From: Candidatus Fermentithermobacillaceae bacterium
Lineage (GTDB): Bacteria; Bacillota; Sulfobacillia; Fermentithermobacillales; Fermentithermobacillaceae
Assembly (NCBI GenBank): GCA_018052475.1
Contig: JAGPNG010000004.1
Location: 1 to 64,000, forward strand
Reading direction: 5' to 3'
DNA length: 64,000 nucleotides
The notes under the pieces are model-generated. The model was given only the letters and a program-made list of their open reading frames with translations. It was not told where the DNA came from and searched no databases. Shown here in pieces: positions 31,936 through 46,615 of this stretch; positions within the stretch are counted from its first letter, which is position 1, and the number at the start of each line of letters is the position of its first letter. The translations under genes and the position numbers were made by a program.

Positions 31936-31980
31936 CCCTCCGTTTCACCGGGGGGGCATTACAGCCGCTATTTCTGCGGC
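31936..31980 (-). promoter_or_regulatory. Expression platform of the TPP riboswitch (likely translational)
   Basis: Between aptamer and thiT start are a GCCGC/GCGGC hairpin and a run of seven C (minus strand, 31950-31956). The C run and the following CCG can pair with CGGAGGG, which holds the thiT SD at 31936-31941, with one mismatch. There is no T tract, so blocking of the ribosome site is more likely than termination. Confidence 0.55.
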
Positions 31981-31995
31981 AAGTCTGACTCAGAT

Positions 31996-32081
31996 TTCCC
32001 TACGCAGGCATTATCCTGGACAGGTTCGATGGGTCAGGCGCTATTAGCCCTTTCTCAGCCGTTTATGAACAGCTCCCCGCT
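31996..32081 (-). promoter_or_regulatory. TPP riboswitch aptamer (THI element)
   Basis: On the minus strand the conserved elements appear in order: GGGGAGC, GGCTGAGAAAGGG, GACCCATCGAACCTG and GGATAATGCCTGCGTAGGGA. These are the core strands that bind the pyrimidine and diphosphate of TPP. It sits directly before thiT-thiN, both thiamine genes, so TPP should lower their expression. Confidence 0.95.
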
Positions 32082-32180
32082 TTGCTTCATTTATTGTATA
32101 CGATTGCGGTGAATAATGAAAGCGTGATAACGGTTCCGGTCTGGGGAACTTTGGCTCTATCCACATAATCTAAGTCGAAT

Positions 32181-43557: not shown

Positions 43558-43760
43558 TTTGAGTCGCCCCTTTTTAAGGGAGATCATGGTTGATCGCCCA
43601 AGTAATATTCTTCGCGTTGATTTGAAAGCAGCCGCGCCTGATGCGTTTGACCTTCCTATGACGTTTGGATCTGTGTTTCTTTGTTCTATATCAGTATATT
43701 GTTCCCGAGGCACGTTCGCAATTTAACTCAGGCAGTATCCAAAGTGAAAGGAGGATTTTC

Positions 43761-43811
43761 TTGTCCGCAGATAGTATAATATCTTTAGAAAGGAGGTGGT
43801 GCCGTGTCTGA
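43761..43811 (+). CDS. Micro-ORF 1 (16 codons), coupled to micro-ORF 2
   Basis: TTG 43761 has a perfect AAAGGAGG at 43747-43754, 6 nt away. The 16-residue product MSADSIISLERRWCRV has one Cys. Its TGA overlaps the GTG start of micro-ORF 2 in another frame. No homologue is known to me. It may be a peptide gene or only a leader for ORF 2. Confidence 0.4.
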   Translation: MSADSIISLERRWCRV

Positions 43812-43863
43812 CGAACCAGTGCTGCTCGGCGCCTCCAATCCCAGCGGGAGGACCGCCGGGTAG
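43804..43863 (+). CDS. Micro-ORF 2 (19 codons) with perfect SD and own terminator
   Basis: GTG 43804 is preceded by AAAGGAGGTGG at 43789-43799. The product is the 19-residue peptide MSDEPVLLGASNPSGRTAG. A strong terminator follows 9 bp after the stop, so the transcript ends here and carries nothing else in the plus direction. The peptide has no signal sequence or Cys. Signalling peptide, modified peptide precursor or attenuation leader are all open. Confidence 0.5.
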   Translation: MSDEPVLLGASNPSGRTAG

Positions 43864-43872
43864 CGCCAACTC

Positions 43873-43902
43873 CCCCGGGGATTTTTCCCCGGGGTTTTAT
43901 TT
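43873..43902 (+). terminator. Strong rho-independent terminator after the micro-ORFs
   Basis: A perfect 9-bp stem (CCCCGGGGA / TCCCCGGGG) with a TTTT loop is followed by TTTTATTT on the plus strand only. Both larger neighbours are on the minus strand, so it must serve a separate short plus-strand transcript. Confidence 0.88.
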
Positions 43903-43908
43903 GGGTGC

Positions 43909-44466
43909 CTAGTGAGTATAGGACTGCCCTTCCAGATACCGTGCAGCCAAAAGTACGCCGATCACGCTTTTGGCATCTTCGAATAACGGTTCTTCAAAAT
44001 CCGCACAGTAAAGCACCTTGTCTCTTACATGGGCAAATTGAAGACGCTCAAGGTGTAATTCTTCTTCGTCACCCTCCAATGGGGCGTACCGAAGGCCGGT
44101 TGCAAGGAATATGGTCATACGCTCGGTCGAGTAGCCGATGGCAGGCCAATAGGAGTAAAGGCGTGTAAGAGAATTGGGATCGTGTCCGGTTTCTTCCCTA
44201 AGTTCTCTCCTTGCAGCTTGTTCCGGAGTTTCTCCCGGATCGATTACCCCGGCGGGTATTTCGAGTGTATATTTCGAAATTGCATATCGGTATTGTCGCA
44301 CAAGCAAAATATTGGCGTCGTTGTCGAGAGCTACTACGGATACGGTATCGGGCCTGTCAACGATCTCCCTGGTAGTTTCGCGCCCCTTCTCGGTCACGAC
44401 CGTATCTACTCTTACAGAAAGCACTCGTCCGCGATAGACCAGACGCTTCGATATAGGCTTCTCCAT
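43909..44466 (-). CDS. nudF: ADP-ribose pyrophosphatase, Nudix family
   Basis: This 185-residue Nudix hydrolase has the layout of ADP-ribose pyrophosphatases: an N-terminal beta domain (SKRLVYRGRVLSVRVDTV), VRQYRYAI, and the Nudix box G-x5-E-x7-REUxEExGU in GVIDPGETPEQ followed by RRELREETGH. The YSYWPAIGYSTERMTIFLA segment follows the family pattern. ATG 44466 follows AGGGGGTG; the frame remains open to 44559, but that part crosses the repeat at 44529 and is unlikely to be translated. Confidence 0.9.
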   Translation of the reverse strand: MEKPISKRLVYRGRVLSVRVDTVVTEKGRETTREIVDRPDTVSVVALDNDANILLVRQYRYAISKYTLEIPAGVIDPGETPEQAARRELREETGHDPNSLTRLYSYWPAIGYSTERMTIFLATGLRYAPLEGDEEELHLERLQFAHVRDKVLYCADFEEPLFEDAKSVIGVLLAARYLEGQSYTH

Positions 44467-44528: not shown

Positions 44529-44557
44529 GAAGCAAAAAGTGCCGTCCCCGCTGCTTC
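44529..44557 (+). repeat. REP-like palindromic element, copy 3
   Basis: A full 29-nt copy (ends GAAGCA and TGCTTC; core AAAAGTGCCGTCCCCG). Its last bases overlap the TGA stop of the GH26-like gene on the minus strand. Confidence 0.75.
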
Positions 44558-46421
44558 ACGGTTGGGTCTGATGCAGGCCTTTTTTGAAGGCTTCGATGTA
44601 TTCGGGTTTCTCATCCAGCCAGTATCGCCGGGCGGGAGTGCCTTTGTGTTCAGGCCGTGGGTCGGGGTCGTAGTAGCTCCACCAGACGGCTATTTTTATG
44701 TTTTTGTACCTGGGTAGGTTTTCGAACATTTCATTGATCCAGGCTTCTTTGTCCCCTCCAACTGAGCTGCATGAGAACTCGGTAATGATCCAGGGGAATT
44801 TGGCGTACAACTGGCTGTACATCCTCCACAACCTGTCATATATCTCTGTGAAAGATCTCCACCTCTCGCCTGTAAGGTCTTGGAAATATGTTCCCGTGTT
44901 GTATCCTGTAAGTCCAATCATGTGGACGTATCCATTGCCGGGATAGTAAGCAGTATGCGAATTCCACTTGCACGGCGGGTAACTCACATCGTTTGGGTTG
45001 AAGATCCAGATGGCGTTGTCTACACCTTCTTCTTGGAAAAGATCGTATACCCGTCTCCACACTTGCACAAAGATGTCAGGATCACATAAGGAAAGGTGTC
45101 CCGAATAGCTGACCCAGGTTGAGTTCATTTCGTTGTTTAGCCTAAAAAGGAAAGGATGCCCAAACTCCTTAGCTTGCTTTGCAAATCTTCGGATCTCGTC
45201 GTCTTTCAAGCCATCTAGGACATCAAAGTTCGGGTTTCTATCATAAGCCCCTCCTACAATCTGATAGGTTAGTTCCACGATCTTTCCGTTTTCATATGCT
45301 TCTTGCATTCCTTCTAAGGGGAAATCATGGCCCATGTATCGGTACCACAGTATTACCGGAAACTGAAAATCCAGTTTTTCCTCTACTTCCTTTATTTTCT
45401 CTTTACCCTCGGGACTAAAAGGATTAGGAGTGAAAAACCCCCAGGTGATGTGGTCCGAGGCGCATATCTTGTCGTAAAGTGCGGCTGTTTCCTGGTTCCA
45501 TTTTGGGATCTTAGGCTCAAAAGACAGATTGTATGAAGCTTCGCCTTTTGGCTCCTGCACCTCAAAGGATTCAAGTATCTGGTAGATGGTATCTTTGTTC
45601 TTTTCAAAAGAAGTCGATTTGAAATGGAACGTGTAATATGTGAGGCCATCTGTGTTTATGTATGCATACGTATATGCGTTCTTCTTGTAGGTACTTTGCG
45701 GCGGAGGTGTCCTGCTTAGGCTAAAAAGCCTTACCTGCCTGCCGTTTATCTCTACCCAAGTGTTTTCATGTATGCTCAAACCGTTGGCTTGTATGTATTT
45801 CTCGTTGGTAACGTAAGAATTGGGCAGGTCAGAAAGCCAGCCCGCAACGTCACTATAAGGTGATATATCCCTTGAAATCCTAAACTCCAAATCATCGCTG
45901 TAGATTCTCGTGAAATCAGGACTGTATCTAAAATCTGCCTGCATATCAGAGGGGTACCTGAGTCTATAGCCTTTCGGATAGTCTATAAGGGTGTTCTCAT
46001 CGGTTCCGGTGACTATTGACTTGACATCTTTGGTGAAATCGGGAGTTTTACCTTTTTCCATCAAGACGCCATCCTGGTAATAGCAGGCCGTATCCGGTTC
46101 GACAATGTCTTGGCTGTCATCTTCGCTATCATCTTTTTCCTCTGAACTCTCGACGTTATCTACCTCGACTGCCGCCTCATCGCTATGATCTTCCTTTTCG
46201 CTTTCTTCATTCCCTGAACTACCTTCCTCACGCAGGTTCTCTTGCTTCGATGCGACAAAAGGTGGGTCTGTAGGCTCCTTCATTTGAGATGTAGAGGGCA
46301 TGAAACTGCAACCTACCATGCTTAGACAAAAAATGGCAACAACGACTATTACAACGAAGGATGGTAAGCCCCTTTGGTGCCGATAGGGCTGACTAGACGA
46401 TGACCCAGACAATGAATCCAT
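44556..46421 (-). CDS. GH26-like lipoprotein (mannanase-type glycoside hydrolase)
   Basis: From ATG 46421 the product has 621 residues. A lipoprotein signal with membrane stretch at about 22-34 ends in the lipobox S-M-V-G-C (Cys38). An acidic, low-complexity linker (Glu, Asp, Ser) covers about 40-110. A domain of about 180 residues of unclear type follows, then a C-terminal TIM barrel with the pair expected for GH26: acid/base E431 in LNNEMNSTW and nucleophile E548 in ITEFS. Beta-1,4-mannanase or a related endo-enzyme on the cell surface is likely. The start is uncertain: AAAGGA is very close to ATG 46421, and TTG 46469 also has a weak AGGA. Confidence 0.8.
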   Translation of the reverse strand: MDSLSGSSSSQPYRHQRGLPSFVVIVVVAIFCLSMVGCSFMPSTSQMKEPTDPPFVASKQENLREEGSSGNEESEKEDHSDEAAVEVDNVESSEEKDDSEDDSQDIVEPDTACYYQDGVLMEKGKTPDFTKDVKSIVTGTDENTLIDYPKGYRLRYPSDMQADFRYSPDFTRIYSDDLEFRISRDISPYSDVAGWLSDLPNSYVTNEKYIQANGLSIHENTWVEINGRQVRLFSLSRTPPPQSTYKKNAYTYAYINTDGLTYYTFHFKSTSFEKNKDTIYQILESFEVQEPKGEASYNLSFEPKIPKWNQETAALYDKICASDHITWGFFTPNPFSPEGKEKIKEVEEKLDFQFPVILWYRYMGHDFPLEGMQEAYENGKIVELTYQIVGGAYDRNPNFDVLDGLKDDEIRRFAKQAKEFGHPFLFRLNNEMNSTWVSYSGHLSLCDPDIFVQVWRRVYDLFQEEGVDNAIWIFNPNDVSYPPCKWNSHTAYYPGNGYVHMIGLTGYNTGTYFQDLTGERWRSFTEIYDRLWRMYSQLYAKFPWIITEFSCSSVGGDKEAWINEMFENLPRYKNIKIAVWWSYYDPDPRPEHKGTPARRYWLDEKPEYIEAFKKGLHQTQP

Positions 46422-46615
46422 CTTCCTTTCCAAGTAAATTGCAAGGTGCCAAGAGCCTGAACGAAACAAAGTGTCCTGAAACGATCTGCAATATAAGGCG
46501 ACCGACCATGACTCACACCTTTAAAGAAGGTTTATCCAAGATATGTGAAGAATCCTTCCACGACAACCACGTAGATTTTAAATGCCACGTTAGATCCTAT
46601 TGAGGAGGGACATTT

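Follow-up and report, generated by a model that had tools for sequence, protein, structure and literature searches.

The window, the 64,000-nucleotide stretch of DNA analysed here, carries at positions 43752-43902 a conserved unit whose best reading, to judge from its sequence, is a self-restrained micropeptide mRNA or dual-function RNA of SigH type. We consider it probable that this is an autonomous small gene with a SigH-type promoter, whose RNA of ~115 nt restrains its own translation and encodes a conserved peptide of 19 residues. The sequence-only reading had described two overlapping short ORFs, each behind a Shine-Dalgarno (SD) sequence, followed by a perfect stem and a T run. Inspection of the sequence found every feature as first described, including the string AAAGGAGG at 43747-43754 in front of ORF 1, AAAGGAGGTGG at 43789-43799 in front of ORF 2, and a TATAAT at 43775-43780 within ORF 1. 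The further proposal that the site is a short transcription unit in its own right, with a terminator to itself, is supported, on sequence evidence, by the conservation of the unit, its promoter motif and its terminator. The coordinates are collected in Table 1.

Table 1. Features of the unit and of the proposed ORF 1, in window coordinates.
Feature	Position	Strand	Remarks
-35 box AGGA, SigH-type promoter	43752..43755	+	position relative to RNA 5' end the same in 9/10 relatives
ORF 1, 16 codons	43761..43811 (TTG 43761, stop TGA 43809-43811)	+	judged not a gene; promoter and RNA 5' end
-10 region GTATAAT	43774..43780	+	18 nt after AGGA; aligned GAAT in L003-L006, L016, L017
Predicted small transcript	43785..43902 (5' end ~43784-43788)	+	conservation starts at 43787; ends at terminator
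Shine-Dalgarno AAAGGAGGTG	43789..43798	+	GAAAGGAGGTGGTG invariant in 10/10 copies
Hairpin A	43795..43836	+	43795-43806 (3' part of SD and GTG) pairs with 43823-43836 (codons 7-11, anti-SD GGCGCCUCC)
ORF 2, 19 codons, MSDEPVLLGASNPSGRTAG	43804..43863 (GTG 43804, stop TAG 43861-43863)	+	open in 10/10 copies; 19 codons in 9/9 complete copies
Hairpin B, alternative	43819..43866	+	excludes A, partly frees SD
Hairpin C, CCC-A-GCGG / CCGC-C-GGG, GAGGA loop	43840..43860	+	inside ORF 2, last third; 6/7 pairs invariant, seventh C-G to U-G
Intrinsic terminator, 9-bp stem, 4-nt loop, T-rich tail	43873..43902 (stem 43873-43894)	+	stem followed by TTTTATTT

Family range and genomic setting

The window comes from a genome of 1.4 Mb in 23 contigs, and the relatives are metagenome-assembled members of Candidatus Fermentithermobacillaceae (Bacillota). 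When positions 43720-43910 were used as a BLASTN query, 8 strong and 2 shorter matches were obtained, all in members of this family. The matches mostly begin at query base 69 (43788), which is the 5' end of GAAAGGAGGTGGTG, and end at the terminator; from 43788 to 43898 the identity is 81-87% in 8 relatives, with E values down to 1e-37, and the flanks diverge. The RNA from 43788 to 43900 folds 4.7 standard deviations below dinucleotide shuffles and, because the conserved segment is set between diverged flanks and folds in this way, the set of features stands above chance. By BLASTN together with a covariance model built from the 10 copies, a single copy of the unit (43752-43902) was located in each of 10 genomes out of 14 from the family, spread over 4 genera. 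A GC-rich stem-loop occupies the terminator position in all nine complete copies, with a T-run behind most of them and a C/T-rich tail in genus g2.

The unit appears to be confined to this family and absent elsewhere among the genomes searched. An exact two-part pattern, scanned over 85,000 species genomes, returned 9 family copies and a single match in Mitsuokella that we regard as chance, a degenerate peptide pattern scanned over 398 genomes of the phylum matched in Candidatus Fermentithermobacillaceae only, and no copy was found in IMG/VR viral contigs. Weak covariance-model matches in 12 genomes of the class (E 4e-5 to 0.008) were inspected singly and rejected as homologues, since they are GC-rich, do not show the order SD, ORF, terminator and are attributed to chance. 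In genome G002 (L050 1323-1531), a cobalamin riboswitch has directly behind it 16 bases identical to the unit's SD region; this match was judged unrelated. A literature search for the peptide string gave no match. The unit is new to Rfam, where it was unmatched at gathering score; the best lax match scored 21.6 bits, the cut-off being 49.5, and rests largely on the terminator. The sole Rfam match in the window at gathering score is a TPP riboswitch on the minus strand (31979-32089, 60.1 bits).

In genus g1, that of the window, the unit is located between polA (left in the window) and nudF (right), both on the minus strand. In g4 its neighbours are nudF and a PHP-domain-like gene (labelled by inspection); in g2 and g5 they are typA and a phosphoribosyltransferase-like gene. 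The unit is always opposite in strand to its neighbours, its terminator points towards the 3' end of nudF or typA, and no co-directional gene follows it at any locus examined. Genome G003 has retained typA and the following gene, and the whole unit is gone. The unit was not found in the single-contig genome G004, G008 is without nudF and the unit, and in G002 neither polA, nudF nor the unit was detectable, so that its absence there may reflect an assembly gap. Occurrence at two unrelated sites, the lack of a co-directional neighbour and the clean loss argue that the unit is neither an attenuator of a neighbouring gene nor essential; on this comparison of loci, it is autonomous and dispensable. 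Also in the window, the minus strand at 44556-46469 encodes a large protein predicted to be a lipoprotein; its N-terminal signal contains a Cys and its C-terminal half is, by inspection, glycan hydrolase-like.

Reading frame and promoter

Judged by conservation, ORF 2 is the sole gene of the two ORFs. Its SD can pair with the 3' end that bacterial 16S rRNA usually has. The aligned translations of the nine complete copies have 19 residues each (MSDEPVLLGASNPSGRTAG, MSDKQVLLGASNPSGRAAG, MSSRPVLLGASNPSGRSAG, MIDPQGLLGASNPSGRAAG, MSSRHELLGASNPSGRSAG, MSSRHVLLGASNPSGRSAG, MSSSKRLLGASNPSGRTAG, MDSLSSLLGASNPSGRTAG and MSSSRRLLGASNPSGRTAG), and the tenth, incomplete copy matches the others over its length. 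In these peptides AAAGGAGGTGGTG is invariant, residues 2-6 are variable and the C-terminus is conserved, giving the consensus M-x5-LLGASNPSGR[TSA]AG. Codon changes in the core are nearly all silent (CTG/CTT/TTA, TCC/TCT, CCC/CCT, GGG/GGA), the stop is TAG or TAA, and Ser2 is retained in 8 of 10 copies, encoded by TCN codons in some genera and by AGT in others. By inspection, hydrophobic runs are no longer than 3-4 residues and the C-terminus is polar. Conservation of the 5' UTR equals that of the ORF core.

Coding was evaluated with a substitution score, for which column patterns were kept and bases redrawn. Since all 10 copies are related sequences from one family, the p-values overstate independence and the test is moderately strong: the ORF 2 frame gave p=0.0055 and the other two frames 0.33 and 0.93, the unpaired loop codons 2-6 alone gave p=0.0175, and a simpler test (open frame, kept stop, silent codons) gave 577 of 20,000. 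Conservation of the peptide in relatives sharing polA-nudF had been suggested as a test, and ORF 2 is kept in G001, which shares this gene pair, as well as in other genera. The SD and the terminator, whose conservation was also to be checked, have likewise been maintained, with GAAAGGAGGTGGTG unchanged in all 10 copies and the stem-loop present in the nine complete ones.

ORF 1, by contrast with its proposed role in a peptide gene pair, was rejected as a peptide gene, since its frame is conserved neither within the genus, where the G001 copy has no stop and different residues, nor in other genera, where its SD and TTG are absent. Because an AGGA/GAAT promoter motif is conserved at this place, its presumed SD, AAAGGAGG, is better read as the -35 region of a SigH-type promoter. 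The 60 bases upstream of the RNA have diverged except for AGGA and GAAT, which lie 17-18 nt apart. The pattern AGGA-N17/18-GAAT is exact in 6 of 10 copies and has at most one mismatch in 9 of 10, against a background of 3.1% per 60 nt. In nine copies the -35 box starts 35-38 nt before the conserved RNA start, and the summed promoter match was 159, compared with 130 (sd 2.5) for shuffles. A scan for SigA promoters upstream of the copies gave nothing above chance. The suggestion that the TATAAT inside ORF 1 could start a transcript carrying only ORF 2 fits this arrangement, in which the hexamer overlaps the putative -10 box.

AGGA and GAAT elements with 17-18 nt spacers constitute the SigH motif in Sporomusa, which is described as similar to the B. 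subtilis and C. difficile motifs (PMC12456013). With the promoters of that regulon the unit shares both elements, their spacing and their placement upstream of nearly every copy, and a sigH gene (TIGR02859) scored above cut-off in 17 of 17 genomes searched. Unlike the consensus, the -10 region in the window's genus is GTATAAT, with GTAT in the window and in G001 where most relatives have GAAT, and this form might also be usable by SigA. The spo0A upstream regions in these genomes show no consistent SigH site, leaving the promoter assignment without a local positive control, and spoVG, which was sought for this purpose, was not found in the family. In g2 (L016, L017 and L007), an operator-like inverted repeat, TCCTGC...GCAGGA, overlaps the -35 box; it is partly retained in G003, which has lost the unit. 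The genomes of g1 (G000-G002) have 3-4 SigH-family profile matches compared with 7-9 in most family members, which suggests that this genus lost later sporulation sigma factors and kept SigH and Spo0A.

Folding of the RNA

Hairpins A and C are common to all copies, with 99.0% of cells paired, compared with 41-55% for slid controls. Six of their pairs vary, each on one side only, and 2 cells are broken; among the copies, no two-sided covariation or compensatory change was found in the pairs of hairpin A. The loop of this hairpin is formed by the variable peptide segment (codons 2-6), and in the genome to which the window belongs 2 nt of its stem have been lost. The alternative hairpin B is energetically favoured in the window and in G001. 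It is less conserved (93.5%, with mismatches in g2), and fold B is clearly weaker in g2 and g5, so that balanced two-state energies were rejected as a general feature across species. An RNA thermometer was rejected as well, since the modelled opening of the SD is merely gradual from 37 to 80 C, with no sharp switch.

In each of nine species, when the peptide was held fixed, 87-99% of synonymous versions had a less stable 5' hairpin than the native codons, and 91-100% had a less stable whole RNA. This greater stability of the native codons in the folding models suggests that RNA structure, which appears to be under selection, has been selected in addition to the peptide.

Alternative explanations and a proposed mechanism

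The main rival is a non-coding regulatory RNA, in which the stems are conserved and the frame is a by-product; its 5' end (GGAAAGGAGGUGG) and its GAGGA loop would base-pair or be bound by a protein such as CsrA. We regard it as unlikely, although variation is greatest in exactly the codons that form the loop of hairpin A, conservation in the 5' UTR matches that in the ORF core, and synonymous versions are less structured than the native RNA. Under this explanation the near-perfect SD at the right distance would have to be coincidental; moreover, the frame scores as coding even in the unpaired loop codons, and start, length and stop have been kept in all complete copies though the changes TAG to TAA and CTG to CTT disrupt base pairs in hairpin B. 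A GC-rich structured RNA of ~110 nt with its own promoter and terminator might also be a diverged form of some known housekeeping RNA, such as SRP RNA or 6S RNA, but the lack of an Rfam match at gathering score, the clean loss in G003 and the failure to find the unit in G004, which speak against an essential RNA, make this scarcely credible.

Two further explanations take the short ORF as functional. A leader-peptide attenuator, riboswitch-like or of the ribosome-arrest type, would control a neighbouring gene, and the short ORF, two mutually exclusive folds and a terminator close after the stop recall such elements, as does the C-terminal R-x-A-G-stop, which is loosely reminiscent of arrest motifs. 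With nudF or typA running against the unit at each of the loci examined, and the unit's sequence kept in two unrelated places, we consider this very improbable. The toxin proposed in the sequence-only reading gains nothing from the peptide itself, which is short and polar at its C-terminus and has no membrane-spanning run. As in type I toxin mRNAs, a small free-standing mRNA of patchy occurrence contains a short ORF and pairs its SD with an anti-SD within that ORF; unlike theirs, the peptide is not hydrophobic, has no membrane segment and ends in SNPSGRTAG, and we give hardly any weight to a type I toxin with a self-sequestered SD.

Among Bacillota dual-function small RNAs, SR1/SR1P of Bacillus subtilis is the type case. 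With RNAs of this type the unit shares a short, free-standing (here predicted) RNA that has its own promoter and terminator and contains a small conserved ORF preceded by an SD; unlike them, it encodes a much shorter peptide of 19 aa, and its RNA and ORF are nearly coextensive. We know of no sequence relation between them. The promoter motif, the terminator and the two genomic places are those expected of an independent transcription unit, whether dual-function sRNA or small mRNA. Phr-type signalling peptide genes are short peptide genes driven by SigH, and the unit resembles them as a short peptide gene with a putative SigH-type promoter; unlike them, it encodes a peptide that lacks a signal peptide, and neither a receptor nor a rap-like neighbour was identified.

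For the self-restrained micropeptide gene that we favour, we infer transcription, SigH dependence, translation and translational control as follows. The SigH-type promoter (AGGA 43752, GTATAAT 43774) would start an RNA of ~115 nt near 43785, which would end at the intrinsic terminator at ~43902, and the strong SD (43789-43798) would serve the 19-codon ORF (43804-43863). With the GTG and the 3' half of the SD paired to the anti-SD in codons 7-11, translation would be held down until hairpin A is opened by the ribosome, by the alternative fold B or by a trans-acting factor. The peptide would then most likely be produced when SigH is active. Tentatively, and with some doubt, we suggest that it may be a new family-specific regulator or signal of the SigH (stationary-phase) stage, its translation gated by a two-state RNA switch in the same transcript, with RNA and peptide selected together within ~115 nt.

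Conserved peptides of ~20 residues are hard to detect from sequence: annotation pipelines pass over them, and it is difficult to separate their conservation from that of an RNA. Here, with ten copies from four genera, the same bases could be examined for selection on the peptide and for selection on the RNA, and selection is seen on both. If translated, the unit would be a minimal regulated gene consisting of promoter, RNA switch, peptide and terminator, and could be tested in a heterologous Bacillota host.
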